Below, one piece after another: positions 1,426 to 22,659 of a stretch of DNA of 47,211 nt (positions within the stretch are counted from its first letter, which is position 1; each line of letters begins with the position of its first letter). Under the pieces are notes generated by a model. That model searched no databases. It was not told the DNA's origin and worked only from the letters and a program-made list of their open reading frames with translations. The position numbers and the translations under genes are program-made. The DNA is from a virus. The stretch lies in the IMG/VR virus record IMGVR_UViG_3300047318_000379, positions 1 to 47,211 of that record. The stretch is one strand, 5' to 3'.

Positions 1426-1436
1426 CTATTTTAAAG
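1426..1436 (-). promoter_or_regulatory. Candidate late-type promoter motif TTTAAAATAG upstream of beta' C-terminal gene
   Basis: Read on the minus strand this gap contains CCTTTAAAATAGAC immediately before the start codon at 1421. The same core recurs at 17931, 19825 and 28783, always in gaps upstream of minus-strand genes. A role as promoter is inferred from recurrence and placement only. Confidence 0.4.
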
Positions 1437-1468: not shown

Positions 1469-1480
1469 TTTTGGTATAAG
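1469..1480 (+). promoter_or_regulatory. Phage promoter motif TTTTGGTATAAG
   Basis: Perfect copy of the recurrent plus-strand motif, containing an extended -10-like TGGTATAAG. It lies 67 bases before the ATG at 1547 in the gap between divergent genes. It is followed by GTGTAGAAG, also found after the copy at 28848. Confidence 0.7.
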
Positions 1481-1909: not shown

Positions 1910-1947
1910 ACCAAATAGATCATCAGGGCTTCCCCCGTGGAGCTTTT

Positions 1948-1974
1948 GCGGTGCTTTCATAGGCCGCTTTTTTT
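1948..1974 (+). terminator. Probable Rho-independent terminator
   Basis: GCGG (1948-1951) pairs with CCGC (1964-1967), followed by seven T. The stem is short and the loop 12 bases, but placement directly after the 1547-1909 gene supports it. Confidence 0.55.
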
Positions 1975-1993
1975 AGTTCATTAAAGTCTTTTC

Positions 1994-2005
1994 TTTTGGT
2001 AAAAG
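1994..2005 (+). promoter_or_regulatory. Variant promoter motif TTTTGGTAAAAG
   Basis: Matches the TTTTGGTATAAG motif at 11 of 12 bases; the mismatch is inside the -10-like hexamer. It lies 68 bases before the ATG at 2074, the same spacing as the copy at 1469 has to its gene. Confidence 0.4.
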
Positions 2006-2073
2006 ATACTTGTAAACCCTAACGGTGTTCTGATCATACACCGAATTCATCATAGTACTATGTAAGGAAATAA

Positions 2074-3342: not shown

Positions 3343-3354
3343 AAGACTGAAGTC

Positions 3355-3383
3355 AAAGACAAGTTTATAGCTTGTCTTTTTTT
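3355..3383 (+). terminator. Rho-independent terminator
   Basis: Perfect 9-bp stem AAAGACAAG / CTTGTCTTT with a 7-base loop, ending in a run of eight T, just after the stop at 3342. Confidence 0.85.
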
Positions 3384-3397
3384 AGCTTGATCAAGCT
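3384..3397. promoter_or_regulatory. 14-bp perfect palindrome, possible operator
   Basis: AGCTTGATCAAGCT is a perfect palindrome between the terminator and the start of the repair operon. It overlaps the TTTAAAATA element by two bases. Its position suggests a repressor or activator site, but nothing else supports that. Confidence 0.35.
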
Positions 3398-3405
3398 TTA
3401 AAATA
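3396..3405 (+). promoter_or_regulatory. Candidate TTAAAATA promoter element before repair operon
   Basis: CTTTAAAATA on the plus strand, eight bases before the ATG at 3414, which lacks a Shine-Dalgarno. The core matches the motif found upstream of minus-strand genes. If functional, transcription would start at or next to the start codon. Confidence 0.3.
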
Positions 3406-3413
3406 ACAATACT

Positions 3414-4412
3414 ATGCCACTTTCTCATAACCAACAAATTTTATTAACCCGCCAACGCCACGAAGCTGAGCGTATGGGGTTGCACTGGGACTATCGTATA
3501 GTCGTTGGTGGCAAAGCGTATTCTTGGGCAACTAAAAAAGAAATGCCTGAACCGGGCAAAGCCATTATTTTACATGAGCAACCCATCCATACTTCTCATT
3601 ATGCTCTAAGTCCTAAAGTGATCATCCCTTCAGGTCAGTATGGTGCAGGTGTTACAACTTTGGATTGGGTACGTAAAGGTAAAGTTGTTAACCAAGAAGA
3701 GAGCGTTGATAAATTTGTTGTCGAAACTACTGAAGGCGATAGATTCTTATTTAAAAGAACTCCCCAATATTCAAATAAAGCTTGGTTGTTTAAGAATCTT
3801 AAGAAACCTGACGCTATAGAGAAGAAAGCGGAAGATGGGCGTATATGGTTATACCATGGTAGCACTCCCGCTAGAATTGAAGCCATTCTTAAAAACGGTC
3901 TAGATCCTAAACTTCAAGGATCGAGGATGGGTGCACCCGACTTGCTAAATAATGAAAAAGTAATGTCTCTTACTGCAAATAAGGATGTTGCAAAAATCTA
4001 TTCTTCTCCAGATTCTATTATCAAACTAGTATTAGGTGGAAAAAGTCCAGAGCCTCTTCTAGTCAGAGTTAACACTGGAAATAGATTAAAAGAGGTGACT
4101 CCAGATTGGGATCACAACGAATGGCACTACAATGATAAGGTTTCTATTAAGGACATCCTAACAAGTGATATGCCTGAATATAGAAAAATTGAAGAAAACA
4201 AATACGTAGAAAAAGTAGCTGCTAGGATTGAAGGTTTCTGTGACACTCCTGGGGCTATTTACCATAGTAAATTTAAGGGTAATAACGTAGGTATGAGTGT
4301 GACTCTACCAAGTCATGTTGTAATACCGAAGCATGCTATGGAAGGCATAGAGTTGGAAATGCACGATGCCATAGAAAAGATACTCGGAAAATATTTTAAA
4401 AAGAAAAACTAA
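3414..4412 (+). CDS. LigD-type 3'-phosphoesterase domain fused to ADP-ribosyltransferase-like domain
   Basis: Residues 1-125 match the 3'-phosphoesterase domain of bacterial ligase D, which trims 3'-phosphate or ribonucleotide ends before sealing. Visible are RHEAERMGLHWDYR (H16, H24, D26, R28 in the metal/phosphate-binding pattern H-x-H-x-D-x-R), SWATKKEMPEPG and IIPSGQYGAG. Residues about 140-240 (IWLYHGSTPARIEAILKNGL, then MSLTANKDVAKIYSS) look like an ADP-ribosyltransferase or RNA 2'-phosphotransferase-type fold. At residues 262-269 an internal NKYVEKVA repeats the peptide that begins the downstream proteins, followed by a 63-residue tail. No Shine-Dalgarno. The stop overlaps the next ATG (TAATG), so it is coupled to the helicase. 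The PE assignment is strong, the ART one moderate. Confidence 0.8.
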   Translation: MPLSHNQQILLTRQRHEAERMGLHWDYRIVVGGKAYSWATKKEMPEPGKAIILHEQPIHTSHYALSPKVIIPSGQYGAGVTTLDWVRKGKVVNQEESVDKFVVETTEGDRFLFKRTPQYSNKAWLFKNLKKPDAIEKKAEDGRIWLYHGSTPARIEAILKNGLDPKLQGSRMGAPDLLNNEKVMSLTANKDVAKIYSSPDSIIKLVLGGKSPEPLLVRVNTGNRLKEVTPDWDHNEWHYNDKVSIKDILTSDMPEYRKIEENKYVEKVAARIEGFCDTPGAIYHSKFKGNNVGMSVTLPSHVVIPKHAMEGIELEMHDAIEKILGKYFKKKN

Positions 4413-6535
4413 TGGCACTTAATGATAAATATACAATGAGGGAACACCAGCTTCACGCCGTAGAAACAGCGGTGAAGCGTAATGGTAATATCATCCTCTC
4501 ACACCCGGTAGGGTCTGGTAAGACTGGCTCCTCTATTGCTGTATTTGAGAAACTAAAACTAGATGGTTTAGCAAACCGTGCACTAGTTGTGACACCCGCA
4601 TCACTACGTACTAACTATGGGGAGAATGGGGTAAAGAAATTTACCGACTCTGATTATCGTGTGTATGGTAATAAACAAGAGGTTTCATCGGACCAGACTG
4701 GATTATTTTGTGAGCCAAAAAGCGAAGGCCCAGAATACGGTTTGGTAAGTTATGAGATGTTCAGGGAAGATCCTGAGAAATACATCAAAGGGCATAACGC
4801 TGATACCGTTATTTTTGATGAAGTACATCGTATTAAGAATGATGAGAGTAAAACCTTTAAAGCATTAAAGGATTCTCGTGGCATGTTCCGCAATTTTATT
4901 GCGATGACAGGATCTATCACATCAAATACTCCGGCTGACGTTGTTCCTCTTATAGATGCAATGACTGCTGGCAATCACCAACTTGGTTCTAAAGCATCCT
5001 TCGAGAATCGTTTCGTTAAAAAAGATGCTAAAGGTAAGATTGAAGTTATCAATCCTATCCTTGTTCGTTCGCTTATCGCTCCTTATGTTCATAACGTTAC
5101 CGAAGAGCAGCTTGAAGAAGGCACGGGTATAAAACGTCCAGATAAGTACGTCCATGAAATTAACATCCCATTATCAGGTCAGCATGAAGAATACTACAGA
5201 TATGTTATCAAACAACTTGATCCTATTACTAAAGCCAAATTATCACATGGCTTAGGAAAACTAGGTAAGGCTGAACTTGACCAGATCTTCTCTAAAATGC
5301 TTAAAGCTCGTCAAGTAGCAAACTCTATGCACATGTTAGACACTAACATGACTTTAGAAGAATCCGCAGAGAAATCCGTAAAGATAAAACGTTTATTGGA
5401 TGATGTCGAAGAGCATTTAAATACTGTGCCCGATGCACAAGTCGTAGTTCATTCCGAGCTAATACAAGGTGGTCTTGACGTTCTTCAAGCTGGTCTTAAG
5501 AAGCGTGGTATAGAATATGGACTATTCATTGGTAAAGGTAACAAAGGTGTTACTGAGAAAAGCCGTCAACAAGACGTAGATGACTACAATGCTGGTAAAA
5601 AGAAAGTTCTTCTTATCTCTGCTGCTGGAGGCGAAGGTCTGGACTTGCCTAATACTACTTTAGTGGCATCGCTGGATGGACATTGGAATCCAGAGAAAAT
5701 TAATCAAGTAGAAGCTCGTGGTATTCGTATGGGAGGTCTTTCCCACCGTCCTGAATCAGAACGTAAGGTTATCGTTAACCGTTATATTACTAAGCTTCCG
5801 GTATCGAATATAGATACAATGAGAAACACTAAAAATCTCCTGTCCCCCACAGAATTTGCTATGCGTATTTTTAAAGGGGAGAAGGCGTTTTTTAATCCAC
5901 ATAAAGCAATGCCAACCGTAGACCAACTTATGTACGCCGTAGCTAAAAGCAAAGCCCAAGGTAATGAACAACTAAAAGGTTTGTTTGAAAAAACCTCTGC
6001 TTATAGTTTTAACAGTGACAGAAATATTCTCAATTCGTATTTAGACCGTTTCCAAGATAAACTTCTTACAGGAGATTACCAAGATAAATGGATAGACGAA
6101 GCAGAAGAAAATCGTTATATCAATCGTCTAAAAAGGTATTACGCAAGTGCCAATAGGAAGGGAGTCGTTGCAGTTACTCCTAAGGATTATGATAAGTATA
6201 AAGACCGTACTAGACAGTCTCAGGCCCTTAGAAATTTCGGCATGGGTATGGGTCTTGGAGCGGGCATTGGTGGTTTATACGGAACAGCTTATACAACTAA
6301 GCTTTTAGGATTTAAAAAGGCATTGAAACTAGGAGCGGGAGTAGGGACTATTGCAGGAGCAATAACAGGAGGTGTAATGGCTAGAAACGGTGATAAGCCC
6401 CATGTTACTACCACTGCAGCAATAGCTAAGAAACGTCTAAAACTAGAAGATGACAATCTACTTAAAATATTACGCGGTGAAGCAGTTAAAGAAGAACAGA
6501 CTAAAGTAACCGAACATTATATTAAGTTGAAATAA
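4412..6535 (+). CDS. SNF2-type superfamily 2 helicase/translocase with C-terminal glycine-zipper segment
   Basis: A 707-aa ATPase expected to move along or remodel DNA. Seen are the Q-like region REHQLHAVE, Walker A HPVGSGKT (K37), DEVH box (D136), an SF2 motif III AMTGS, and a C-terminal RecA lobe with SAAGGEGLDLP and the arginine-finger region QVEARGIRMGG (about residue 431). The unusual part is the tail, about residues 606-660, rich in Gly/Ala (GMGMGLGAGIGGLYG and KLGAGVGTIAGAITGGVMA). It looks like one or two membrane-inserting glycine zippers, as in the tagged proteins next door. Overlaps its neighbour upstream by one base and is followed one base later by the tagged gene at 6537. Role in DNA repair is inferred from operon context. 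Confidence 0.85.
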   Translation: MALNDKYTMREHQLHAVETAVKRNGNIILSHPVGSGKTGSSIAVFEKLKLDGLANRALVVTPASLRTNYGENGVKKFTDSDYRVYGNKQEVSSDQTGLFCEPKSEGPEYGLVSYEMFREDPEKYIKGHNADTVIFDEVHRIKNDESKTFKALKDSRGMFRNFIAMTGSITSNTPADVVPLIDAMTAGNHQLGSKASFENRFVKKDAKGKIEVINPILVRSLIAPYVHNVTEEQLEEGTGIKRPDKYVHEINIPLSGQHEEYYRYVIKQLDPITKAKLSHGLGKLGKAELDQIFSKMLKARQVANSMHMLDTNMTLEESAEKSVKIKRLLDDVEEHLNTVPDAQVVVHSELIQGGLDVLQAGLKKRGIEYGLFIGKGNKGVTEKSRQQDVDDYNAGKKKVLLISAAGGEGLDLPNTTLVASLDGHWNPEKINQVEARGIRMGGLSHRPESERKVIVNRYITKLPVSNIDTMRNTKNLLSPTEFAMRIFKGEKAFFNPHKAMPTVDQLMYAVAKSKAQGNEQLKGLFEKTSAYSFNSDRNILNSYLDRFQDKLLTGDYQDKWIDEAEENRYINRLKRYYASANRKGVVAVTPKDYDKYKDRTRQSQALRNFGMGMGLGAGIGGLYGTAYTTKLLGFKKALKLGAGVGTIAGAITGGVMARNGDKPHVTTTAAIAKKRLKLEDDNLLKILRGEAVKEEQTKVTEHYIKLK

Positions 6536-6536
6536 C

Positions 6537-7508
6537 ATGAATAAATATCTAGAAAAAATAGCCAGAGAGTATACTCAGCAAGAAAATGTGGAGACTGGTG
6601 CAGGGGATAAAATTGGTCTAGGGATTACTTCTGCAGTAAGTGCAGGAATAGTCTCTAAAAAAATTGCTCCTTTCGTTGCGAAACCTGTATCTGCTTTTAT
6701 AAGTAAGGGTACCCCTCGTATTCCAACAGATGCTTTAGACGCAATTACAGATAAAGTACTATCTGCTACTAATTCTACAATGAATCCTTTTGAATTAAGT
6801 AAGCATATGCCTTCAAATCTTTTGATAGGAGCAGCTGGTCAAATGAAGCCCGGAGTGTATACACCAGATGAAATGAATAAAATTAGATGGACAGCAGATA
6901 AGGCTGAAAAACTTAAAGATATCTTCATGGGAGCTCCAGCTCGTTTAGTAGGAATCAACCTACCTAAATATACTGGAGCACTTTCAAGTAGAGAGCCTTT
7001 CATTAAAAATTATATTGCTGACAGCAGACCAATCTCATTAGCAGCTATTGCTGGTGACTTCCTTGGTCAACTTGGAGGTCAACCTGTTAAAAGCACCGTA
7101 AATACTGATTCCTTAGCTCAACATCTAGGTCATGCAACTGACCTTTCTAAAGGAGCTACTAAGCTTAAAAGCAGATTAGGTCTTATTTCTAAAACTATGA
7201 TGACCCCTGCTGCTGTAGTTGCAGGAGGAATGCTTGCAAGTGAAAAAACTAGGGATTACGCTTGGGCAGTTCCTGTGGTAACGGCAGTTCCTGGTATTAG
7301 AAATGAATTGGCATCAAGTATAAATGCTATGAAACTTTTAAAGGGACAGGGCGTTAGTAGAAAAGCAGTCATTCCTATTGCAGCTGCTAATTTGTTAAAA
7401 AGTTTGATTAAACCTGGTTTGACTTCTGGCACTATAGCTGGTATTAATCATCTAAGGGAAAAAGGGGAAGAAGTTAACCCAGAAGAATGGTTAGTGGATA
7501 GAGGATAA
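6537..7508 (+). CDS. Tagged glycine/alanine-rich protein, candidate internal virion protein (323 aa)
   Basis: Starts with MNKYLEKIAREY, the short peptide shared with three following genes. The body is not recognised. It has Gly/Ala-rich hydrophobic stretches (about residues 24-59 and 222-240) and no catalytic motif I can identify. The shared N-terminus resembles the capsid-targeting sequence of T4 internal proteins (pattern M-x-x-Y-x-E-x-I-A). An A-R-E tripeptide right after it would fit the A-x-E type of sites cut by prohead proteases in some large phages. Its stop overlaps the next start (ATAATG). Confidence 0.8.
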   Translation: MNKYLEKIAREYTQQENVETGAGDKIGLGITSAVSAGIVSKKIAPFVAKPVSAFISKGTPRIPTDALDAITDKVLSATNSTMNPFELSKHMPSNLLIGAAGQMKPGVYTPDEMNKIRWTADKAEKLKDIFMGAPARLVGINLPKYTGALSSREPFIKNYIADSRPISLAAIAGDFLGQLGGQPVKSTVNTDSLAQHLGHATDLSKGATKLKSRLGLISKTMMTPAAVVAGGMLASEKTRDYAWAVPVVTAVPGIRNELASSINAMKLLKGQGVSRKAVIPIAAANLLKSLIKPGLTSGTIAGINHLREKGEEVNPEEWLVDRG

Positions 7509-8164
7509 TGAATAAATATTTAGAAAAAATTGCCAAAGCATACTCTGGTGAAAAAGTGGAAATAGAACCAGGCGTATACTACCATTTAGATAAGCATGAA
7601 CTGAAACCTACTACCGCTCATATGGCAGAGTATATGGATAAAAGGGATACTCGTAGTCGATTAGGGGTTGGAGCCGTGTACGGGGCAGTCGGAGGCTTTA
7701 TGGGTGCAGCTATGGGAGATGGCTACCATGGAACACGTCTTCGTCAAGAGGCTCCCCTAACAACTACGAACTATTCTAAGTTTGGTATAGCTGACCTTGA
7801 ATGGGAAAATACTAGACCCGTTCCGGACTTTAATACTAATAGTAGAGATCCGATAGGAGACTATAACCGGAAACTTAGAGATTGGCGGGATAGGCAACCA
7901 CAATGGCACGACTTTACTGAAACTCGACCTTCAGAATTCAAACCAAGATTAACTAACTTAGTTAATAAGTATGGTCATACTCCTACGAAGCGCATCACAA
8001 CTGGATTAGGTGGAGTTGCTGGTGCTTTAGTCATGGGTGGACTTGGCTATGCGGTAGGAGGATTACTTCCGGAAGAAAGACCTATAATTAAAAACCAATA
8101 CTTAGAGAAGTTAGAAAATAGGCACGAACATCATATTAACGAATTAGAGGGCTGGAATGACTAA
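7508..8164 (+). CDS. Tagged protein with two glycine-zipper segments (218 aa)
   Basis: Begins MNKYLEKIAKAYSGE. Two Gly-rich hydrophobic segments (GVGAVYGAVGGFMGAAMG near residues 50-68 and GLGGVAGALVMGGLGYAVGG near 165-186) flank a polar, Trp-containing middle of about 95 residues. Such segments are typical of membrane-inserting or pore-forming phage ejection proteins, but no named family is recognised. It overlaps the gene upstream by one base and the one downstream by eight. Confidence 0.78.
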   Translation: MNKYLEKIAKAYSGEKVEIEPGVYYHLDKHELKPTTAHMAEYMDKRDTRSRLGVGAVYGAVGGFMGAAMGDGYHGTRLRQEAPLTTTNYSKFGIADLEWENTRPVPDFNTNSRDPIGDYNRKLRDWRDRQPQWHDFTETRPSEFKPRLTNLVNKYGHTPTKRITTGLGGVAGALVMGGLGYAVGGLLPEERPIIKNQYLEKLENRHEHHINELEGWND

Positions 8165-8435
8165 TAAGTATCTAGAAAAGATCGCCCTCTTTAGACCTAA
8201 ACGTCAACCTTTAACCAAATTCAAAAAAGAAGAGTTCCAAGGCCGTTTTACAGAAATGTTTGACAAGGCTGTAAAGGGTAGAAAACTGAATGCTGAGAAG
8301 GTTAAGAACTATCGTTGGAAGAACAGCATTGGCATGGTTAATAAAGAAGGTTTACTAAGTAGGCTCTTGGTTCCAAGCAAAGCTAATCCGGGCAAACATC
8401 TGGAACTGAAACATCCAGACTATAAGAAGAAATGA
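8157..8435 (+). CDS. Small very basic tagged protein (92 aa)
   Basis: Starts MTNKYLEKIALF, with one residue inserted before the common peptide. The rest is strongly basic (many Lys/Arg, few acids) and probably binds DNA or packs with it, as small basic internal proteins of other phages do. No domain recognised. It overlaps both neighbours (8 and 4 bases), so it is translated as part of the same operon. Confidence 0.75.
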   Translation: MTNKYLEKIALFRPKRQPLTKFKKEEFQGRFTEMFDKAVKGRKLNAEKVKNYRWKNSIGMVNKEGLLSRLLVPSKANPGKHLELKHPDYKKK

Positions 8436-8917
8436 ACAAATACCTAACGAAGATAGCACAACAACTTAAGGAAGAGGCTCACCCCTCTTCTCTAGGTATT
8501 GACCTTGATAAAGGAACGGACCCTGAACTACACAAATGGCTCATAGCAGTCACCTTATTTTCTAAGCCAATTCAGCGTAGTGTTGCTGCTCGTACTTCTA
8601 TGCAGTTATCTTCGGAAGGTATTGATAGCCCGGAAGCTATTGGTAAAGCTGGCTATTCAAATCTATTAGAATCTCTACAGAGGGGTCACTATTCTCGCTA
8701 TGATGAGAGCACTGCTAAAACCCTTCTTATACAAGCCAAACAGCTGCATGACCAGTATGGATCTATCTCTGATTTCGTAGCCCGAAGAACACCGGAAGAG
8801 ATACGAAAAGAAATCATAAACCTAAGAGGTATTGGTCCTATGGGTAGTAAACTTTTCGTAGAAGGACTTGAGCCACATTTACAAAAGTTTCAAAAACCAG
8901 TCGAACATCCTGTATAA
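8432..8917 (+). CDS. Endonuclease III-like HhH DNA repair protein with N-terminal tag (161 aa)
   Basis: Tag MNKYLTKIA, then an all-helical domain (residues about 25-150) with the layout of the HhH-GPD/endonuclease III superfamily: LHKWLIAVTLFSKPIQRSVAA near the start and the helix-hairpin-helix LRGIGPMGSKLFVEG near residues 136-151. Family members remove damaged bases or act as AP lyases. I do not see the C-terminal Fe-S cysteines of canonical endonuclease III, and catalytic Lys/Asp residues cannot be placed with confidence. It sits just before a DNA ligase, consistent with excision repair. Confidence 0.7.
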   Translation: MNKYLTKIAQQLKEEAHPSSLGIDLDKGTDPELHKWLIAVTLFSKPIQRSVAARTSMQLSSEGIDSPEAIGKAGYSNLLESLQRGHYSRYDESTAKTLLIQAKQLHDQYGSISDFVARRTPEEIRKEIINLRGIGPMGSKLFVEGLEPHLQKFQKPVEHPV

Positions 8918-8944
8918 TAGAAGATTACGAAAGATATTTACTAA

Positions 8945-9829
8945 ATGTTCGCACGCCAACCTTATAAAGAACAAGAAGACTGGACGACTCTTAAAGATCC
9001 AGTAGCCACTGTTAAATATGATGGAGCTCACTATTTTTTAGCTGTTAAAGATGACGGGGCTTTAACTTTCCATTCCAGACGACCTAGTGTTAAAGGAGGC
9101 TTCCCTGAAAGAACCGAAAAGCTTCCGCACCTTACTACTAAAAAATTCCCAGAGCTTTCGGGTAATGTGTATTCAGTAGAGTTAATTCACACAGGTCATA
9201 AAAAGGAAAATAAAGAATCTCATCCAGCAGTGAGTGGACTTCTCAATTCTTTAGCTCCAAAATCAATCGCTGACCAAAAAGAAAAAGGCCCTATCAGGGC
9301 TGTTCTGATTGATGTTATAAACCCACCTTTACCTACGTATAAAGATAAGCTCTTACATATGAAAGATGTGGAGAAGAAGATTGGCAAACCAGATTTAGTC
9401 TTTGTTCCTGAACCAGCCATTACAAAAGAAGCTATCGTAAAACTTATTACTAAAACCAAAGTTCATGGTCACGAAGGAGTTATTATTACTTCTTTAACTA
9501 CCCCTGAAGCAACGAATCCCCGTATCAAAATTAAACATAAAAATACGTATAACCTTCGAGTAACAAAGATTCAGCAAGAGATAGATATGCACGGCAAACC
9601 TAAAGAACAGGCAGGAGCTTTAATTGTAGAAGATGCTATTGGAAGAGAAGTGGCTTCAGTAGGTACGGGTCTTAGCAGAGAATTAAAACAAGAAATCTGG
9701 AAAAACAAAGGTGACTGGATTGGTCGCTTGATCCAAGTGGAGACTATGGGTACCGTCAAAGAAAAGGGTAGACTTAGAGCGCCTGTCTATAATGGAGATG
9801 CAGATGGGGACATTGATTTAGTAGAGTAG
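8945..9829 (+). CDS. ATP-dependent DNA ligase (294 aa)
   Basis: Seals nicks through a covalent lysyl-AMP. Motif I is KYDG (K24). Further motifs are HSRRP, VYSVELIHTG (motif III), EGVIITS (motif IV) and KIKHK (motif V). An OB-fold-like tail follows from about residue 205 (GALIVEDAIGREVASVG). It is short, like viral minimal ligases. There is no clear Shine-Dalgarno. Together with the separately encoded LigD-type phosphoesterase at 3414, the operon supplies two of ligase D's activities in trans. A promoter motif begins one base after the stop. Confidence 0.9.
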   Translation: MFARQPYKEQEDWTTLKDPVATVKYDGAHYFLAVKDDGALTFHSRRPSVKGGFPERTEKLPHLTTKKFPELSGNVYSVELIHTGHKKENKESHPAVSGLLNSLAPKSIADQKEKGPIRAVLIDVINPPLPTYKDKLLHMKDVEKKIGKPDLVFVPEPAITKEAIVKLITKTKVHGHEGVIITSLTTPEATNPRIKIKHKNTYNLRVTKIQQEIDMHGKPKEQAGALIVEDAIGREVASVGTGLSRELKQEIWKNKGDWIGRLIQVETMGTVKEKGRLRAPVYNGDADGDIDLVE

Positions 9830-9830
9830 A

Positions 9831-9842
9831 TTTTGGTATAAG
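9831..9842 (+). promoter_or_regulatory. Phage promoter motif TTTTGGTATAAG
   Basis: Perfect motif starting two bases after the ligase stop codon ends, followed three bases later by AGTA, then ATACTTATAT. The copy at 36349 has the same downstream sequence. It drives the small gene at 9876. Confidence 0.7.
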
Positions 9843-9875
9843 GATAGTATCTACAACTATACTTATATCTTGATC

Positions 9876-10124
9876 ATGATTAACCCTCCCATAGCAATAG
9901 GAAATACTCCTGTGTTGGTCCTTAAGGATCAATTTGTTACGATCCACAAGAAACCTTTTAAAGCATTTAGAGGTTTGAAGAAATTTCAGTACAACTACAC
10001 AACTCAAATGGTTCGCATCGTGGTAACAAAGTTTAACAACACTACCACTATCGAATATCCTCTCAAGGGTCAAAGCACTACAAGGCTTCAACAGTTGGAA
10101 GAAGAATTTCGAAAAATTCATTAG
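9876..10124 (+). CDS. Unknown small protein (82 aa)
   Basis: Not recognised. Basic, beta-rich looking protein (VTIHKKPFKAFRGLKKFQYNY). ATG 9876 is preferred; a TTG six bases upstream is in frame. No Shine-Dalgarno is visible in a leader of about 25 bases. It forms a single-gene unit between the promoter at 9831 and the terminator at 10136. Confidence 0.65.
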   Translation: MINPPIAIGNTPVLVLKDQFVTIHKKPFKAFRGLKKFQYNYTTQMVRIVVTKFNNTTTIEYPLKGQSTTRLQQLEEEFRKIH

Positions 10125-10135: not shown

Positions 10136-10162
10136 AAAGCCCGGTTTCATCCGGGCTTTTTT
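10136..10162. terminator. Bidirectional Rho-independent terminator
   Basis: Perfect 9-bp stem AAAGCCCGG / CCGGGCTTT with a 6-base loop. Six T follow on the plus strand and A-rich sequence precedes, so it can serve both the plus gene ending at 10124 and the minus operon ending at 10167. Confidence 0.9.
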
Positions 10163-10166: not shown

Positions 10167-11339
10167 TTATCCTTTGATTCTTATCGGAGTATTCTCTTTG
10201 ATCCTACCTTCTTTCAAAGCTTTCAGAGCATCAAGTTCAGTGTCAAATTCCACGGTCTTTTGAGCTTCATCCGGTTCTGTCATATATACCGATCCGATAA
10301 TAGCTTCATGTCCAGGAGCAACCATAGAATTACCTAAACCTCTACGGTAGTCATGGATATGGTGTTCTGGTAGAAGTTTCTTTTTAGCTTCCTCAACTGC
10401 TTCAGGTGTCATTGGCACTTGTATAGTCAGAGCATCTCCATCGTAGTCACCAGCGTATAAAGGAAGGTGCAATGGATTCAATCCAATAGTCTTACCCTTA
10501 ATAGGAACAGCAAAGTGAGCAGTAACGTTAGTCCTCATCAGCGTAGGTGCTCGGTTAAGTATGATAGGAACCTGCTTAATCAATTTACTAAGAGAAGCTT
10601 GTGCAGCTGGGTTTCTGGACTCTACGGCATTTTTAGCAGAAACATAGTCAAAGCCTTGTTTAGTTAAATCACGAAGTAAGTGGAACTGAAAAGTTGTCCA
10701 CAGCATATCTTCGGGAATAGCAGCTTCGTTAAAACCAAGATTAGGCTCTGCGTAAATGGTTCCACGACCAGAGAAGTCTTGTTTCTTACTTAGGAGTTTT
10801 GAGTGGAACAATCCACCCTTCGGACCTGAAGTACCGCTAATTTGCTTTATATAGCCCTTCAAGCTTTTCCCACGACTTGCGCCACTGATTGCATCACCTA
10901 GACCGAAAACAGCCTTAGCGCCTGCGTAGAGGTCTCTACGGGCATCCATGAGCTGGTTGTTAGGATATATATCTTTGTTGTACTTAAGAGGCTCATTTAC
11001 AAGCATGTGATCTCTATACAACATATTTACATCGGCGTAAGTAATGTTGTTATTACCTTCAACCATTGTAGGTCTAGTCAAAGGCGGAGCCACTGGTATA
11101 TTTCGTAAAATATACGCTTGCTGTGGTTTAAGCTCCGACTTACGAAGTCCTTCTAGATACTTAAGCTTTTTTACTAAGTCATCTTTTTTACTAGGACTCT
11201 TAGTTGTTTTAATTTCTTGCTTAATACCTTCGAATTGTTTATTAATGTCTACTTTACCAAGTAACATCTCAAAGGCAGGACCGCCTGCAATAAGAAGGTT
11301 TGTATCAGCATCTGGTTTTTGAGTCGTTGGTTTTGCCAT
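10167..11339 (-). CDS. rpoC: RNA polymerase beta' subunit, middle (active-site) piece
   Basis: A 390-aa polypeptide equal to roughly E. coli beta' residues 170-560. After a short leader it reads GGPAFEMLLGKVDINKQ, then RNIPVAPPLTRP, KGGLFHSKLLSKKQDFSGR (RNAP lid/rudder area), ILNRAPTL and the catalytic loop YAGDYDGDALTIQVP. The three Mg-binding Asp are kept, while the Asn before them in bacterial NADFDGD is Ala and the Ala is Gly. It ends at the position of bacterial VRITE, here IRIKG. There is no clamp N-terminus; that part is fused to beta. Last gene of the minus-strand late block, two bases after the papain-like gene and just before a terminator. Confidence 0.96.
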   Translation of the reverse strand: MAKPTTQKPDADTNLLIAGGPAFEMLLGKVDINKQFEGIKQEIKTTKSPSKKDDLVKKLKYLEGLRKSELKPQQAYILRNIPVAPPLTRPTMVEGNNNITYADVNMLYRDHMLVNEPLKYNKDIYPNNQLMDARRDLYAGAKAVFGLGDAISGASRGKSLKGYIKQISGTSGPKGGLFHSKLLSKKQDFSGRGTIYAEPNLGFNEAAIPEDMLWTTFQFHLLRDLTKQGFDYVSAKNAVESRNPAAQASLSKLIKQVPIILNRAPTLMRTNVTAHFAVPIKGKTIGLNPLHLPLYAGDYDGDALTIQVPMTPEAVEEAKKKLLPEHHIHDYRRGLGNSMVAPGHEAIIGSVYMTEPDEAQKTVEFDTELDALKALKEGRIKENTPIRIKG

Positions 11340-11341: not shown

Positions 11342-11836
11342 TTACTTTCGTACTTCAAATTTCAATTTAAGAATCTTAGATAAATCATAAGGGGAAACCA
11401 TTTTCCCAGGAGAATTCCATCCAGCGTTTATCAATATGTCTTGTACATATTCGGAACAGACTTTATCTTTTAATGAACTTACTCTTTCTTTAATTCTAAA
11501 TAAGTTGTATATTCCTAGAAGTATAAATGAAATGATACCATAATTTACCCTTACCCTTAAGGATTCTAGTATATCAGTTCTTACTTTATTTCTATCAACA
11601 GGACATTCAAATACATCAAAATTAATGTCTGCAAATTGACTCAGAGGAATTAAGTGATTATGCCCAGAATTAATCTCTGCCATCCAAAGTCCACCGTTAA
11701 GCCAGATAGATATACCTGTATGAGTATAGGGGCTACGGGTAAATATTTCTGTTAATTTGGATATAATACCAGAATGCTTTCTGATATTTATAATATCCCC
11801 TGTTTTTATTTTCTTACGTGCTTCAGTATAGTTCAT
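11342..11836 (-). CDS. Permuted NlpC/P60 (papain-like) peptidase/amidase
   Basis: 164 aa. Layout of the circularly permuted YiiX-type group: GDIINIRKHSG at the start, the His motif SPYTHTGISI, MAEINSG with an acidic residue, and a C-terminal VCSEYVQDILINAGW carrying the likely catalytic Cys. A hydrophobic segment (ISFILLGIYNLF) lies between. Family members cut peptidoglycan or other amide bonds. Its place beside tail-fibre genes suggests a tail- or virion-associated wall enzyme, but that is inference. Confidence 0.75.
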   Translation of the reverse strand: MNYTEARKKIKTGDIINIRKHSGIISKLTEIFTRSPYTHTGISIWLNGGLWMAEINSGHNHLIPLSQFADINFDVFECPVDRNKVRTDILESLRVRVNYGIISFILLGIYNLFRIKERVSSLKDKVCSEYVQDILINAGWNSPGKMVSPYDLSKILKLKFEVRK

Positions 11837-11857
11837 AATTATTATAAAATTACTACT

Positions 11858-12523
11858 TTAAGTTTCTCCAAAAGCTGGAGGCCATCCCGTTGAGAAGTTA
11901 TAAATTGAAGGGCTTGCTGAAGCTTCCATAATTGCTTTATGAGTTTCGGCTTGTTTAAAAACAGCTGCTTCTTGATCTTCTAATGCTTGTACTATATCAT
12001 GAATTAACTGGATAGTTATAGGAATAAAACTATTATCCATAGTCTTCCAATAAACAGGCCCAGAAGCAGTTTGTAAAATAGTTGTCCCAGGGGATCCTGC
12101 GATGGCTAATTTAAATGCTTTATTATCCAAGGTAAGATACTGAGTTCTACTAACTATATCTGTTTGAAACCATTTACCAGCGACTGGCACTCCAGTGCCA
12201 ATTGTTCTACGTAAACGTTCAACTTTTATTTCTTCCCACTTATCTAATTTAGCCTGCGTTTTGAGAGCAGTTATTTCCTCAGCAGATCTTGGGATAATTT
12301 GCCAAGCTTGGAACCATACCCCTTCTATAGTTAGATGCGGAGCAATTTCTACGGCGTATTCTGTAACAGGATTACAATCTGGAAGAGTCGGTGTAATTTC
12401 TGCAAAACCCAGTCCTTCTATCATTTCATCAGTTAGTACACTGGGGGCGGACCAGTTAGGACGTAAAATTCTTACATCTGAATGCGAGCGTGCTATTTCT
12501 AAAGTATTTGTATCTATCCACAT
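11858..12523 (-). CDS. Tail-fibre-associated protein with DUF4376-type domain
   Basis: The C-terminal half (WEEIKVERLRRTIG, KWFQTDIVSRTQYLTL, then AETHKAIMEA) matches the phage tail domain DUF4376, found in tail fibre or fibre-assembly proteins. The N-terminal part (about 95 residues) is not recognised. Two in-frame starts exist. The ATG at 12532 abuts the GGAG with no spacing, while that at 12523 has nine bases and follows the upstream stop directly, so it is preferred. Confidence 0.8.
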   Translation of the reverse strand: MWIDTNTLEIARSHSDVRILRPNWSAPSVLTDEMIEGLGFAEITPTLPDCNPVTEYAVEIAPHLTIEGVWFQAWQIIPRSAEEITALKTQAKLDKWEEIKVERLRRTIGTGVPVAGKWFQTDIVSRTQYLTLDNKAFKLAIAGSPGTTILQTASGPVYWKTMDNSFIPITIQLIHDIVQALEDQEAAVFKQAETHKAIMEASASPSIYNFSTGWPPAFGET

Positions 12524-12524
12524 A

Positions 12525-13382
12525 TTATACATCTCCTGTTAAAGTTGAAGGGAAGGCTCGGCCTGCTCCCCAGATAATTCTTACTGCACCATTACCTCCT
12601 GCATTTGGACCGCTATTAGATAAACTACTATTAGTACCGCCACCTCCAGCTCCATATAATCCACCGGCACCAATAACACCTCCAGAATTGAAGCCTCCAT
12701 TAGAACCTCCAGAGCCTCCATTAATATTGGTAGCAGTAGTTCCACCGGTACCATTGGCACCTTGGCCTAGTAGCCCAACTCCTCCACCTCCTCCAAATAG
12801 AGATGTACCTCCACCTCCTGCCCCACCAGTTCCGGCACTTCCCCCGGATGCACCGTCTGCACTCCCCCCAACTCCACCTGTTCCAGCGTATCCGCCAGCT
12901 CCACCTCCTCCACCTGTCCAATTGGGAGCATTAGTGTAATCAAGGGTACCGACTCCTCCATTACCCCCATTACCTCCACCAGTTCCAACAAAAGTACCAC
13001 CAGCGCCACCTCCCCCCGCTTCATTAAGTCCACCTCCCCCTAAACCACCCATAACAGTTGAGGTATTAATAAAATAGGAGTTGGTACCATTGATACCAGA
13101 TATAGATCCATTCGTAGGCTTACCCCCGGTTCCAACTACTACAGTATAAGAAGTTCCAGGAACTACATCGATATTATTTTTCCAACCTAGGCCCCCTCCC
13201 CCTCCACCTCCGCCCGCACCAGCTGTGTTAGATCCTGCACCACTACCGCCTCCTCCAACGCAAACTACACAAACAGAGGTAACTCCTGCAGGGCATACCC
13301 AAGAGAAAGTTCCTGGGGTTGTATGAGCGACTTGACTGGGAGCAGCTATTATGTCTACTGAACCCATACTTGTACTAAACAT
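12525..13382 (-). CDS. Glycine-rich phage adhesin/tail protein (285 aa)
   Basis: Starts with a short beta region ending TFSWVCPAGVTSVCVVCVGGGGSG, the typical opening of glycine-rich phage tail proteins. About 200 residues follow with repeated runs of 3-8 Gly, then INGGSGGSNGGF and a C-terminal GGNGAVRIIWG. Such Gly-rich segments form polyglycine bundles in receptor-binding adhesins of T4-like phages. Likely host-recognition tip protein. Its start overlaps the stop of the large fibre gene upstream. Confidence 0.82.
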   Translation of the reverse strand: MFSTSMGSVDIIAAPSQVAHTTPGTFSWVCPAGVTSVCVVCVGGGGSGAGSNTAGAGGGGGGGGLGWKNNIDVVPGTSYTVVVGTGGKPTNGSISGINGTNSYFINTSTVMGGLGGGGLNEAGGGGAGGTFVGTGGGNGGNGGVGTLDYTNAPNWTGGGGGAGGYAGTGGVGGSADGASGGSAGTGGAGGGGTSLFGGGGGVGLLGQGANGTGGTTATNINGGSGGSNGGFNSGGVIGAGGLYGAGGGGTNSSLSNSGPNAGGNGAVRIIWGAGRAFPSTLTGDV

Positions 13383-16300
13383 TAATAATTACTCCCGCCT
13401 GTACGACCATAAGTGTTAGTACCATCACAAGTAAACACATAGATATCAACTTTACCATTAACACTTGTAGCACTAGGAGCAGTTCCCCCAGCCCATTTGA
13501 TTGTAGAACCTCCTGCCCAAGTTAGAGTATGTACACCCCCGTAGGCAACTAGAAGGGTGTATCCTTTACCTGCTATAGAAGTCGGTAAAGTAATAGTAGC
13601 ATTGGCGTTAGTAGTAAGTTTCTGTATAGTACCATTAGACAATGAAACTGTGAAGGAGGATCCTGCCGCTGGAGCATACAAAGTTTCTATATAATCCGTA
13701 ATAGTAGGATTTGTCAGAGTTGGGTTAGCAGAGTTTGCCTTTAAATTCAATGCTGTTTGCTGTGCTGTACTAACTGGTTTATTAGCATCACTCGTATTAT
13801 CCACATTACCAAGTATAGTGATGTTTGCAGTACCATCGAATGATATTCCGTTAATAGTGCGTGCAGTAGCAAATTTAGTTGCTGTGGCTGAATTTCCACC
13901 GATATTCAAAACAGTAGCCGTACCTGTCAAACTTGTCCCAGGACCTATAAAATCAGTACCGGTGACTGTGCCAGTTGCTGAGATGTTGCCTGTAACCGTA
14001 GCAAGTCCTTGGGCCAGTCGCAGCACTTCAGCCGTAGTTACAAGAGAGGCAGATCCTTTGGATGACACGTTGAAACGTAAGTCTCCACTGTAACCCCCAG
14101 TGTTGTAACTCAGAATCGACGCTTGTTTATTCGTTGACGTACCATAGAACGAGACCCCATCATTAGCGTTGATTCCATCCGAACCACTGGCTAGTACCAG
14201 TTTAGTATCCGGCAAGTTCATACCAATACCTAAACGTCCAGACGCATCCAGACGCATCTTCTCAGCGTTGTTGGTGACAAAGACAACAACACCATCTAAT
14301 GCGGAACCACCCCGATGGAAATTAAAGCCTGCTGCTAAGCCTGGGCCAGCACCTACATATTCCATACCAAATGAGGCATGTGACGAGTTGATTGTAGTGC
14401 CAATACCATTTTTAGCGGTAAGCTGGAAATTAGCGTCAGAAGCACCACGGGCCAGGATTGCTCGCGTGGAGCCAGCAGTGCTATTAGTGATATCCAAAAT
14501 ATTGGCAGCACCACCAATCTGCAAGCTACCACTAAGCGCACCTCCAGTCAGAGGTAGAGTGTTTTCAACGTAGGCCATGGTCATGACAGACCAGCCGGTG
14601 CCACCAGCAGCAGCCCACTTGTGCAGAATACGCTGTTGAGATTTATTGAAGTATAGAGCATTAAATCCACCACCAGTTGCGTCAGCGTAGGTAGAAAGAT
14701 CAATAATATCAGCGAAAGCACCTGAGGTGTCATTCTCAAATCCAAAACGGAAGCGACCTCCGGAAGCATATCCAAGTCCTGTTAATGGATTGCTTATAGT
14801 ACGAGAATCTAAGGAAGCTACTGATGTACCTGCCCAACCTGGTGCCTTTATTGAGGGGGTGTACCCTAAAGCTGTGGTTACATTAGCAAGGGTCAAACTA
14901 GTGACGTTGACAGCCGTTGTAGCAGTAGCAGCGTTACCACCGATACTTAATCCAGCAGCAGTACCTGTAAGGCCGGTGCCAGCGCCTGCAAAAGAGAGGG
15001 CTGACAAGGCTCCTGTCGAAGGTACGAAGGACAGATTGTTGGAGACATACTGAGGTAGTCCGTTACCACTTGAGCGGTTGAACGAGAGAAATACAGGACT
15101 GGCGTACGCATTATCCAGATTAACGTCTATCAATCCAGTAGAATTGGATTTGCCTGTAATGTTGATAGCCCAACTACCTGAAGCCCCAGTACCAGTTAAC
15201 GTAGGAGCGTATAGGTTGAAGTTTTGGCTTGCCAGAATAGTGCGCCAAGCAGTCCATGAACCCCCTCCAAGTGCCGTATTACCGGAGCGTGTGTACATTG
15301 CACCATCAGTATAGGCAGTGTAAGTCTGAGTGATAGTGTCACTACCCGCCACACACGAAACAAATAGCTGACCGTAATTACCTCCTGGAGAAGAGTTAAT
15401 ACCAGCACTACCAGTTTTGTAGAATCCAGGAGTAAGAATGGTGTTAAGGTCCAATCCATCCGCTAGTATGGCACCAGCAAGACTTCCGTCATGCCATAGC
15501 TTACGCCAAGAACCCCAAATATCACCTGATGAGTATCCAGTTACCTTACGTATTGTGTAATCTTCGGTAGGACCGTTGGAAGAGAACAGTTGGAAGGTAC
15601 CTGCATCAGAGCTTGATCCAGATGCTCGTCTGGCTTCAAGTGTAACACCGGAAAGTACTGGAAAATTGGTACTACCGGAGGAATTAACTAGAAGATCAAA
15701 ACCAATACCACGATCAACGTTTGCATCTATGGCACTTGTGCCTAGTATTGATAACTTTGAGGCTGAAGCTGCCGCACCTGCCGATGTAATATATCCTGGA
15801 CCATTGGTAAGCTGGTTCAAGTTGGTCAGCGTTGCAGAATTCCAAATTTGATTGTTGTTGTAGTACCCAACGCCCAGCTTGCTGCTGAAACTACCTTCTA
15901 AGCCAAACATCGAAGTGGCCATCTGAAGATTGCCCATACCAACTGCTTGCACAGCTGCTCTTACTGTATAAGTGGAGGCATGGTTATGGTAAATCTCCAA
16001 ACCAGTACCTGCTACAGAAATACGTAACAGAGGATGATTTGAAGTGTTGTCTGCCAAGGCTACAGCCGTGAGAGTCCATGCACCACCTGACTGAGTAACA
16101 ATATATGTAGCACCAGTATAAGTGCCAGTACTCAAAGTCATAAGGTTAATGCGATACCCATAACCGTTTACCAGCAAATTTCCACCAGTAGGCAAAGGCA
16201 AGGTTACAAAAGTAGCTGTGGGAATACTATAGTCGTTATACGCTTGTGATTGATTACTGGCTTGAAGCGGAGTATAGCCAAGTGCAGAAGTAACATTTCC

Positions 16301-16471
16301 ACTAGTAATTCCAGTAAGTGAACCAGACCATTTAGCACCATCCCAGTATAGAGGACATTTATCGGTAGTTGACCATATACTACTACCGCTTCCATAGCTA
16401 GGAACTGGGGTAGCGGCATTGGTACTCACTGCCATCGGAGATAGCAGAAAATAATCTAATTCGATTGTCAT
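13382..16471 (-). CDS. Large tail fibre protein with pyocin-knob-like domains (1029 aa)
   Basis: Long repetitive fibre: ALGYTPLQ/ALGYTPS repeats, several GTGLTGTA and GNAATATT segments, and two knob-like modules (around GSWRKLWHDG and GGSWTAWRTI) as in pyocin/fibre 'knob' domains. A C-terminal NGTIQKLTTNANATITLP-type cap resembles fibre tail domains. It probably forms a trimeric receptor-binding fibre. The middle (about 13.9-16.3 kb) is GC-richer than the flanks, consistent with modular exchange. Overlaps the next gene by one base. Confidence 0.88.
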   Translation of the reverse strand: MTIELDYFLLSPMAVSTNAATPVPSYGSGSSIWSTTDKCPLYWDGAKWSGSLTGITSGNVTSALGYTPLQASNQSQAYNDYSIPTATFVTLPLPTGGNLLVNGYGYRINLMTLSTGTYTGATYIVTQSGGAWTLTAVALADNTSNHPLLRISVAGTGLEIYHNHASTYTVRAAVQAVGMGNLQMATSMFGLEGSFSSKLGVGYYNNNQIWNSATLTNLNQLTNGPGYITSAGAAASASKLSILGTSAIDANVDRGIGFDLLVNSSGSTNFPVLSGVTLEARRASGSSSDAGTFQLFSSNGPTEDYTIRKVTGYSSGDIWGSWRKLWHDGSLAGAILADGLDLNTILTPGFYKTGSAGINSSPGGNYGQLFVSCVAGSDTITQTYTAYTDGAMYTRSGNTALGGGSWTAWRTILASQNFNLYAPTLTGTGASGSWAINITGKSNSTGLIDVNLDNAYASPVFLSFNRSSGNGLPQYVSNNLSFVPSTGALSALSFAGAGTGLTGTAAGLSIGGNAATATTAVNVTSLTLANVTTALGYTPSIKAPGWAGTSVASLDSRTISNPLTGLGYASGGRFRFGFENDTSGAFADIIDLSTYADATGGGFNALYFNKSQQRILHKWAAAGGTGWSVMTMAYVENTLPLTGGALSGSLQIGGAANILDITNSTAGSTRAILARGASDANFQLTAKNGIGTTINSSHASFGMEYVGAGPGLAAGFNFHRGGSALDGVVVFVTNNAEKMRLDASGRLGIGMNLPDTKLVLASGSDGINANDGVSFYGTSTNKQASILSYNTGGYSGDLRFNVSSKGSASLVTTAEVLRLAQGLATVTGNISATGTVTGTDFIGPGTSLTGTATVLNIGGNSATATKFATARTINGISFDGTANITILGNVDNTSDANKPVSTAQQTALNLKANSANPTLTNPTITDYIETLYAPAAGSSFTVSLSNGTIQKLTTNANATITLPTSIAGKGYTLLVAYGGVHTLTWAGGSTIKWAGGTAPSATSVNGKVDIYVFTCDGTNTYGRTGGSNY

Positions 16472-16473
16472 TA

Positions 16474-17550
16474 TTATGCAATCCAGTCTACAACATAGTT
16501 AGTCCCTACTAAAGGAGCGGTGTTAAAAATTACCTTGAAAGTGTTATTAGTATCGTACTGAATGCTTGGTCTAACCATTGAGAACGGGGTTGCCGATTGT
16601 GAAACGAAAACCGGGAATCCTCTTTTATTCTGATTATGAGTAACTGTAAAAGTCGTAGTAGCATTATCTCCGGTAAGAGTTGTTGCAGCTGCTGTTCTAG
16701 CTACAGTAGCATCAACAGTAACTCCAGGAATCCCTACGCTGATACCCCCTCCACCTGCAGGAATGACTGTTATCTGATTACCAGATACACTAATGCCATT
16801 ACCTGCAGTATACAGGGAAGAAGCAGAAAACTGATTCCAAATAAGATTTGTGGACCCTAAGGTAATAGGGTTAGAATTAGCTAATAACCAACTAGTAGAT
16901 GCAAGAATAGCGCCTTCTTCAACAACAACGTGTGTACCAGAGTTAAGTTGGGTTCCATTAATGGCATCAGCTCGTCTGCCCCAAGCTCCAGCGGAGACAG
17001 TATAAATACCATTACCACTTGCAGTAGTCTGATTCTTTACAAGAACTGAATCTCCAGAAGTTAGAGTAACAGCCCAATCTCCTCCTGCTTGAGTAGTAAG
17101 ACCAGATAAGGTAATGTTTGCAGTAGTTGCAAAACGAACAGATGGTTTAGAATCAATACCAGCTTGTGCAGCCTGAACTTGAGATAAAACCCACTGTCGA
17201 GTTGCTGCATCGCTGTTAGATACTGGATCTGCAACGTTTGTAATAAGTTGGTTGTTCATACTCACAGATGCAGTTGGTGCTGCCATCTGATCTAATCGAT
17301 TTGTACGAACTTGAGTATCGAAGTTTACTGCCAAGGCACTTAGTGGAATAACACCTGATAGCTTAGTAGCATCCATAGTGATCCAAGCATTGTTTGCCTG
17401 GTTACGCATACGAGGCGCATCCAATGTTGTGTCAAAATACATTTGACGAGGTAATGGAGTACCAGGAGGAGACGCTAATGGCTCAAGAGATGCACGGACA
17501 AGCGAGTTACCCGCTAAGTCGATATCTACTAAAATTAATTCACTTGACAC
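16474..17550 (-). CDS. Tail fibre protein (358 aa), GTG start
   Basis: The central domain is a widespread phage fibre module: GIDSKPSVRFATTANITLSG, GDSVLVKNQT, SGNGIYTVSAGAWGRRADA, GTHVVVEEG and LIWNQFSAS. The N-terminal 100 residues (RQMYFDTTLDAPRMRNQANNAW, DAATRQWVLSQ) are also fibre-like. It starts at GTG with AAAGGA upstream. Structural, tail-attached. Confidence 0.88.
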   Translation of the reverse strand: MSSELILVDIDLAGNSLVRASLEPLASPPGTPLPRQMYFDTTLDAPRMRNQANNAWITMDATKLSGVIPLSALAVNFDTQVRTNRLDQMAAPTASVSMNNQLITNVADPVSNSDAATRQWVLSQVQAAQAGIDSKPSVRFATTANITLSGLTTQAGGDWAVTLTSGDSVLVKNQTTASGNGIYTVSAGAWGRRADAINGTQLNSGTHVVVEEGAILASTSWLLANSNPITLGSTNLIWNQFSASSLYTAGNGISVSGNQITVIPAGGGGISVGIPGVTVDATVARTAAATTLTGDNATTTFTVTHNQNKRGFPVFVSQSATPFSMVRPSIQYDTNNTFKVIFNTAPLVGTNYVVDWIA

Positions 17551-17562
17551 TTTATAATTCCT

Positions 17563-17910
17563 TTAATTTAAAATTGCTTGCCCGGATACTGGGACTGAAA
17601 ATGAGATAACAACTTGACTATCGCTTGGGTAGTTTACAGAACCTCTTATAGACCTACCCGTGCCATCTACAGTTACTATCGTAGGTTTTTTATTCATAGC
17701 GTGATTTACGACCCATACTGCATTTGCAGAATTTTGATCAAAAGTAAATCCAGGATTTGTGGGACCGGGGTTTCCAGTATCACCCTTCTCACCTCTTTCT
17801 CCCTTATCTCCTTTTATGCCTGTTTTTCCAGGCGGACCAACTTCTTGCAAAACACTTACTACAGAGCTTTGGTCTGAAGGGTCAAATCTATTTGGGTTTC
17901 TGTTAGTCAT
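17563..17910 (-). CDS. Collagen-like short tail protein (115 aa)
   Basis: Gly-X-Y repeats (GPPGKTGIKGDKGERGEKGD) at residues about 25-50, then a C-terminal domain of the type W-x-V-x-H-x-M-x-K-K-P, common after collagen stalks in tail proteins. Likely trimeric accessory fibre. A second collagen-like protein lies at 22660-23160. Confidence 0.82.
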   Translation of the reverse strand: MTNRNPNRFDPSDQSSVVSVLQEVGPPGKTGIKGDKGERGEKGDTGNPGPTNPGFTFDQNSANAVWVVNHAMNKKPTIVTVDGTGRSIRGSVNYPSDSQVVISFSVPVSGQAILN

Positions 17911-17930
17911 TGTTTATTTCCACTAATACG

Positions 17931-17941
17931 CTATTTTAAGC
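17931..17941 (-). promoter_or_regulatory. Candidate late-type promoter motif CTTAAAATAG
   Basis: Minus-strand GGCTTAAAATAGCG, overlapping the stop of the upstream gene and about 20 bases before the ATG at 17910. Same core as at 1426, 19825 and 28783. Confidence 0.4.
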
Positions 17942-18371
17942 CTATGTACTTGGCTACGGTAAGTAATTTACTAACAAAGGAATGTCCCCAAACGGAATTA
18001 GCAACGTCTTCAGGAGTAAAGGTTATACCCCCACCTTCCCCTCCACCTACGCTTGTAACGGCGTATGCTGCCGAAGAAAGTCTATCCACAAAAACTCCAG
18101 CAACAGGAACAATTTGAGCATTGACGTTTCCTCCGCTGATAGAATAGTTACCAGCAGAGGGGAATCTTAGACGATAGGAATTTACAAAACTCACGATAGG
18201 GAACTTAGCTCCACCGCCTAAGTCTCCCTCTTGATACTTAATAATCGGTGGATAAATTACTCCAGTAGCCGAAGCTTCCAGTTGACGTAATGTATTATGA
18301 AAATCAATAACATCCGTTATACTGGAAGTCGAATCTACAATTCGATTGTTCCAATCTACTGTAATAGTCAT
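17931..18371 (-). CDS. Tail-associated protein (146 aa)
   Basis: ITVDWNNRIVDSTSSITDVIDFHNTLRQLE opens a small domain often seen in phage tail/fibre clusters, with LRFPSAGNYSISG further on. The C-terminus (EDVANSVWGH) is typical of a domain that precedes collagen or fibre parts. Precise role unknown. The ATG overlaps the stop of the 477-aa gene upstream. Confidence 0.7.
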   Translation of the reverse strand: MTITVDWNNRIVDSTSSITDVIDFHNTLRQLEASATGVIYPPIIKYQEGDLGGGAKFPIVSFVNSYRLRFPSAGNYSISGGNVNAQIVPVAGVFVDRLSSAAYAVTSVGGGEGGGITFTPEDVANSVWGHSFVSKLLTVAKYIGLK

Positions 18372-19804: not shown

Positions 19805-19824
19805 GAAAATTCCTTATTTATAAT

Positions 19825-19835
19825 CTATTTTAAGA
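19825..19835 (-). promoter_or_regulatory. Candidate late-type promoter motif CTTAAAATAG plus TATAAATA
   Basis: Minus strand reads GTCTTAAAATAGAT and continues into TATAAATA, which equals the T4 late promoter consensus. It sits about 20 bases before the start at 19804 and overlaps the stop of the upstream gene. Confidence 0.45.
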
Positions 19836-22658: not shown

Positions 22659-22659
22659 A

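Follow-up and report, generated by a model that had tools for sequence, protein, structure and literature searches.

We analyzed a fragment of 47,211 bases from the genome of a tailed phage in IMG/VR (IMGVR_UViG_3300047318_000379; hereafter the window), in which one β and one β′ subunit of a multisubunit RNA polymerase (RNAP) are encoded jointly by three minus-strand open reading frames (ORFs). These encode β fused to the N-terminal part of β′ (β–β′N), a free-standing middle piece of β′ (β′mid), and a C-terminal piece (β′C) (Table 1). Sequence comparisons confirmed that the ORF at 10167–11339 is a real gene for the catalytic middle of β′. In Pfam, its product matched RNA_pol_Rpb1_2 (8e-16) as well as Rpb1_1 (C-terminal half), and among PDB entries it aligned with bacterial β′ chains over E. 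coli residues 181–515 (E 1e-39). The 1137-aa ORF matched RNA_pol_Rpb2_6 (2e-63) and the start of Rpb1_1 at its residues 1004–1046, and the ORF at 3–1421 matched Rpb1_5. In complete relatives, the full-length β′C proteins were ~606–609 aa.

An earlier interpretation made from the letters alone (the sequence-only reading) had assigned the middle product to about E. coli residues 170–560, beginning where the β fusion stops and ending just before β′C. This agreed well with a global alignment to Salmonella rpoC, in which the β-fused β′N ended by ~169, the middle piece ran from ~169 (first conserved GG at 181) to 552, and β′C started at 553. The first split falls in a zone of β′ that tolerates lineage-specific insertions, as one and the same residue of the middle piece corresponded to position 181 in E. 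coli, ~257 in Mycobacterium, and 457 in Thermus. The layout proposed earlier also stood, with the refinement that the middle piece and the β fusion are themselves 11.8 kb apart and that the C piece runs out of the window. The ten-gene plus-strand block that it had placed between the middle and C pieces was recovered as nine clear ORFs at 1547–9829 and a probable tenth at 9870–10124, located behind a promoter-like motif at 9834.

The catalytic-core hallmarks of multisubunit (double-psi β-barrel) RNAPs were present. The middle piece carried the catalytic aspartates D298, D300, and D302 of the DxDGD loop, which reads AGDYDGD, the β fusion carried the barrel lysines K785 and K793, and β′C contained the bridge/trigger region and Zn-site cysteines at positions 232, 284, 291, and 294. 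None of the aligned group members had the N-terminal Zn ribbon of β′, and the second Zn site was retained. The catalytic residues were invariant and retained on all three pieces. The 14 other aligned homologues from genomes with the same split (the split clade, see below) matched the middle piece over its length with 54–78% identity. Ratios of nonsynonymous to synonymous substitution rates (dN/dS) were 0.01–0.06 for the middle piece where measurable, indicating strong purifying selection, and 0.02–0.09 for β–β′N. Each long record or isolate encoded one set of RNAP domains, with one copy of each. A search of the window and of the near-complete relatives for another full-length β′ gene, which would have spoken against a split β′, found no second β′ gene in any of them.

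Table 1 Features of the window and of related loci (L numbers). Coordinates refer to the window unless another locus is given.
Feature	Position	Strand	Remarks
β′ middle piece	10167..11339	-	390 aa; E. coli β′ ~181–552
DxDGD catalytic loop of β′ middle	~10434–10448		residues 298–302
β + β′ N-terminal part, fused	23160..26573	-	1137 aa
β′N within the β fusion	~23163–23575		from about residue 1000, ~130 residues
β′C piece	3..1421	-	473 aa; truncated by window edge
Genes between β fusion and middle	11342..23160	-	twelve genes; tail-fibre-like, collagen-like, head-decoration-like, unknown
Block between middle and β′C	1547..10124	+	SNF2-type helicase, DNA ligase, others
Intrinsic terminator, bidirectional-looking	10136..10159	-	directly 3′ of middle gene
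Sigma-70-family factor	42786..43562	-	regions 2 and 4; 258 aa
Promoter-like motif TGGTATAAG	1472..1480	+	opposite-strand genes
Further sites of the + strand motif	9834, 28851, 34051, 36352, 37600, 41801	+	
Candidate leaderless -10 box TAAAAT	1428..1433	-	ends 6 nt before β′C ATG
TAAAATA box before β′C, besides window	L006, L007, L008, L019, L022		
Box before β′ middle	L004, L007, L009, L017, L018 (TAAAATA); L054 (TATAAT)		
Group I intron in β part	L013 (Vibrio phage D181) 6533–6813; L036 (IMG/VR contig) 7190–7471		

Fused and split layouts in related phages

The same enzyme was found by tblastn, with 50–53% identity, in Salmonella phage Arash (OQ632216) and Vibrio phages D69, D148, and D181. 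In Arash and D69, β, β′N, and the middle piece form one chain of 1525–1527 aa and β′C is a separate gene (in Arash, gp206 is the 1525-aa fused chain and gp216 is β′C; the D69 counterpart is D69_0261), and in D181 the first chain is broken by an intron. A profile search of IMG/VR yielded some 40 loci, and the separate pieces were conserved in about 20 related contigs (17–19 split relatives in the layout survey). L025–L036 and L041 were fused as in Arash, L045 had two chains of 1437 and 591 aa, and the more distant contigs L043/L044 carried all of β and β′ in one 2026-aa chain (6719–12799) that was detectably related to the three-chain enzyme. Apart from the intron-bearing relatives, β was always contained in one chain, of which it made up ~1000 residues.

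The distance between the middle and β genes varied widely within the split clade. The two genes overlapped by 20 nt in L024 and by 4 nt (GTGA stop/start) in L023, L038, and L042, and short gaps of 37 nt (L021/L022), 69 nt (L005/L006), and 232 nt (L008/L019) were followed by longer ones of 270, 367, 653, 1271, 1901, 2089, and 3525 nt. The widest gaps were 8116 nt (L003 = L054) and 11,820 nt in the window, and a gap of about 11.6 kb was derived from contig coordinates for L004/L055. The genes filling the gap were largely unrelated between genomes and were often tail-fibre-, collagen-, or head-decoration-like. Host-recognition cassettes thus seem to have settled at the new gene boundary, suggesting that a polymerase gene boundary can turn into a landing place for tail-fibre genes.

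On a maximum-likelihood tree of β plus the middle piece, with cellular and other phage outgroups, the split genomes formed one clade (Shimodaira–Hasegawa-like approximate likelihood-ratio test, SH-aLRT, 97). A careful run gave bootstrap/SH-aLRT values of 97/98, and the clade was present in 98% of the bootstrap trees. The outermost rows of the tree were fused. The window was sister to L054 (100/100), and its enzyme was nested with the fused enzymes and shared their conserved gene order, which places it in the Arash-like RNAP family. Since the split genomes form one clade, a single fission is the most likely origin of the free middle piece. Changes between adjacent and dispersed (>500 nt) arrangements numbered at least four on this tree, in which the order of the deepest splits was weakly supported, and dispersal was therefore probably repeated.

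Two readings of split phage RNAPs exist so far, namely that they arose by splitting, for example through intron traffic, or that they are relics which precede the two-subunit form of cells. Here, a single phage group contains a graded series from one chain through two chains, a 4-nt overlap, and short gaps to a separation of 12 kb, which makes the direction of change testable and points to fission.

Proposed assembly of the enzyme and alternative explanations

We searched for signs that the pieces are rejoined. At a permissive threshold, no intron was matched by Rfam in the window or at either junction; weak matches at 10075–10215 were only the terminator hairpin. The negative result at the junctions is informative, because the same search detected group I introns in the β part of the fused D181 and L036 (E 6e-26 and 6e-28), both at residue ~509–517. 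A homing endonuclease gene is annotated beside the intron in D181, and an ORF of the same size was found in L036. The D181 record lists the intron-split exons as separate hypothetical proteins. No intein-sized extra sequence was present at the protein ends, which had only 10–30 variable residues, and the ends of the pieces aligned with a short linker of variable sequence in the fused relatives. Only 2 nt separate the middle gene from its upstream neighbour, a strong terminator comes immediately after the stop of the middle gene, and the β stop codon shares TGATG with the start of the next gene. Such overlapping or abutting neighbours leave no room for intron halves at the split. A frameshift as the cause of the split was also tested and rejected. 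The inspection of intein and intron boundaries proposed in the sequence-only reading thus gave no splicing signal, in keeping with its view of a true dispersed split.

It is highly improbable, then, that trans-splicing introns or split inteins rejoin the pieces and that the working enzyme is not of three chains. Intron traffic in this gene is real, as the group I introns of D181 and L036 indicate, but those introns interrupt β away from the split, and neither the junctions, the crowded gene borders, nor the protein ends offer what such rejoining would need. Intron mobility has been put forward as a cause of split genes (PMC7598289), and introns elsewhere in the same gene of sister genomes make this route to the split plausible, though not demonstrated. 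An ancestral three-chain state, with the Arash-like fused chains as secondary fusions, is easier to entertain but still unlikely. It agrees with the published proposal that the split polymerases of phiKZ-type phages are older than the two-subunit form of cells (PMC7824862); in addition, our outgroups are long-branched, and support for the Arash-like fused genomes as a clade is not firm. However, the split rows form a single nested clade, both outermost rows have β′N and the middle piece on one chain (and one of them has everything on it), the cut lies where the linker varies, and reading frames still overlap in those members whose pieces have moved least apart, which is what fission would be expected to leave. 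Iyer et al. 2021 argued against splitting and for an origin of split phage RNAPs before the last universal common ancestor (PMC7824862), whereas the series described here speaks for splitting, at any rate within this phage group.

Instead of forming a phage enzyme, the pieces might bind to the host polymerase or take the place of some of its parts. No α subunit appears to be encoded: PF01193 and PF01000 had no match in Arash, D69, D181, or the long contigs, with models that detected α in 13/14 control genomes. Known phage enzymes lack α as well. The phage sigma factor could serve the host core; a sigma-70-family factor was also encoded by Arash (gp196), D69 (D69_0246), and most long relatives. 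Nevertheless, the pieces jointly cover a complete β plus β′ core with catalytic residues on each of them, and the α-less nonvirion RNAP (nvRNAP) cores of phiKZ and AR9, which are built of β/β′ pieces, are active (PMC7598289, PMC8287921), and we regard a role confined to the host polymerase as very unlikely. Decay of the middle gene into a relic might be suspected from its distance to its partner, but strong purifying selection, invariant catalytic residues, and the lack of any other copy reduce the chance of this to almost nothing.

We consider it likely that the enzyme is a three-chain assembly of a twice-cut ancestral β–β′ fusion, without α and with the phage sigma factor as its most likely partner. 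The source would be a tailed phage of ~165–187 kb from a group with one multisubunit RNAP. The ancestral fusion would have been cut once after the β′ double-psi barrel, releasing β′C, in an event common to the fused relatives, and again in a short unconserved linker after the β′ clamp segment, releasing the 390-aa catalytic middle and leaving the clamp segment on the end of β. This second fission probably started with a small frame change that gave overlapping stop and start codons, as in L023/L038, after which tail-fibre cassettes would have entered at the new boundary and separated the halves by as much as 11.8 kb. We infer that the three chains, namely β–β′N, β′mid with the Mg-binding DxDGD loop, and β′C with the bridge/trigger elements, assemble into one active enzyme in which ordinary β/β′ interfaces would substitute for peptide bonds, with promoters presumably recognized by the phage's own sigma-70-family factor. 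Such an assembly suggests that the Mg-binding module of β′ can exist as a separate 390-aa protein, and an α-less core with a recognizable sigma factor and sigma-like motifs may provide a small test system for sigma use by a minimal core.

Several points weigh against the three-chain assembly and its history. The AlphaFold2 model of the middle piece (predicted local distance difference test, pLDDT, 51; predicted template modelling score, pTM, 0.32) and the AlphaFold model of β–β′N (pLDDT 59, pTM 0.34) were too poor to support assembly. An α subunit could exist unrecognized, host α or sigma could participate, and the window is a fragment of a genome. Moreover, the rooting of the tree rests on the very long branches of L043 and L045, whose order is not settled.

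Comparison with known multisubunit RNA polymerases

The ~180 kb phages of the Arash/D69/D148/D181 group share with the window a separate β′C, the gene order portal/~100 aa gene/β, their own sigma factor, and a single RNAP set. They differ in having β, β′N, and β′mid on one chain, giving two chains in total and not three, and D181 and D148 have an intron-type interruption in β, shown to be a group I intron in D181.

Virion RNAPs (vRNAPs) and nvRNAPs of the phiKZ/AR9 type likewise have an α-less multi-chain core with β′ cut after the catalytic barrel (PMC7598289, PMC8287921). When the split sites were compared, as the sequence-only reading had suggested, the cut between the middle and C pieces (552/553) was found at the same site, which is the common post-barrel split of phiKZ-type vRNAPs and nvRNAPs and of cyanobacteria (PMC7598289), but the first cut differed. 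In the phiKZ nvRNAP, β′N is kept with the catalytic barrel and β is split (PMC8287921; PMC7824862), and enzymes of this type have β in two or more chains, whereas here β is whole and fused to β′N and β′ has an extra cut at ~160–181. The phiKZ/AR9-type phages also have two RNAP sets, and their enzymes lack α and any recognizable initiation factor (PMC7598289), in contrast to the one set and recognizable sigma factor found here. The β′ of jumbo-phage vRNAPs has a further small piece at the very C-terminus (SPN3US gp244; PMC7598289). A three-chain β′ is thus not wholly without precedent, but the SPN3US type is cut elsewhere.

The γ (rpoC1) and β′ (rpoC2) subunits of the cyanobacterial/plastid enzyme are split in the same region as the middle and C pieces, and the middle piece aligned with γ residues 187–549, but γ retains β′N and β is separate. 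Having β and β′ on one chain, fully in L043/L044 and partly in the window, is a feature shared with the single-chain RNAP of crAss-like phages and with bacterial rpoBC fusions; however, no similarity to cellular profiles is detectable for the crAss enzyme (PMC7481178), while the window enzyme is readily found by Pfam. The mReC phages (Weinheimer and Aylward 2020) are also metagenomic phages with cellular-like β and β′. The filter used to find them demands β and β′ of 800 aa or more each and the motif NADxDGD (PMC7481178), and would drop the present group because its β′ is in pieces and its loop reads AGDYDGD. In the open-licence literature that we searched, no description was found of the first split (~160–181), of this architecture, or of Arash. 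In another phage lineage, Cobetia phage Carin-5 (L063, 7642–14467) has separate β and β′ genes beside an annotated sigma factor, which is a second case of a phage RNAP with sigma.

Promoter-like signals and neighbouring genes

A scan with the sigma-70 consensus showed no excess of plain consensus promoters, and phage-specific motifs were found by word enrichment. The motif TTCAATA-N~14-TTTGGTATAAG-N-A-NN-GTGTA has sigma-70-like spacing and was present in both the split and fused groups; L006, L011, L054, and others also carried it. Exact GGTATAAG sites were intergenic in 66/95 cases, compared to 7/110 for permuted controls, and 69 of the 72 flanked intergenic sites, in split and fused groups, lay on the other strand from the one that encodes the RNAP and structural proteins.

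STAAAATA was enriched on the RNAP/structural strand. In the split clade, the box lay exactly 6 nt before the β′C ATG in all six genomes whose listed β′C start is an ATG; upstream of the middle ATG, TAAAAT or TATAAT lay at a distance of 5–9 nt in 8/18. In total, a box was found in 14/36 upstream regions, compared to 0.9 expected. The spacing between box and ATG suggests the geometry of leaderless transcripts in the RNAP genes of this clade. Given these boxes on the RNAP/structural strand and their leaderless geometry, the RNAP genes appear to be part of the structural programme. A promoter candidate of their own, a TAAAATA box just upstream of the start codon, appears to be present in several of the detached middle genes. 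Since the RNAP genes lie on the structural strand beside the portal gene, the role of the enzyme may be late, and the enzyme is possibly packaged in the virion. A more tentative idea, which we consider doubtful but worth stating, is that the catalytic subunit is separately regulated, through its own leaderless late promoter or a tail-gene operon and through co-packaging in the virion, with fission providing a control point. If this were true, the polymerase would be assembled only when the three chains and the phage sigma factor meet, and the fission would not be neutral.

The order portal/~100 aa protein/RNAP β was kept in the window (26621–28750), Arash, D69, L008, and L009, and the product of the ~100 aa gene may be an RNAP- or portal-associated factor. 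In phiKZ-type phages, a Swi2/Snf2 helicase adjoins the β′C genes (PMC7824862). SNF2/SF2-type helicases were found in the window at 4412–6535, near β′C, and at 32316–34058.
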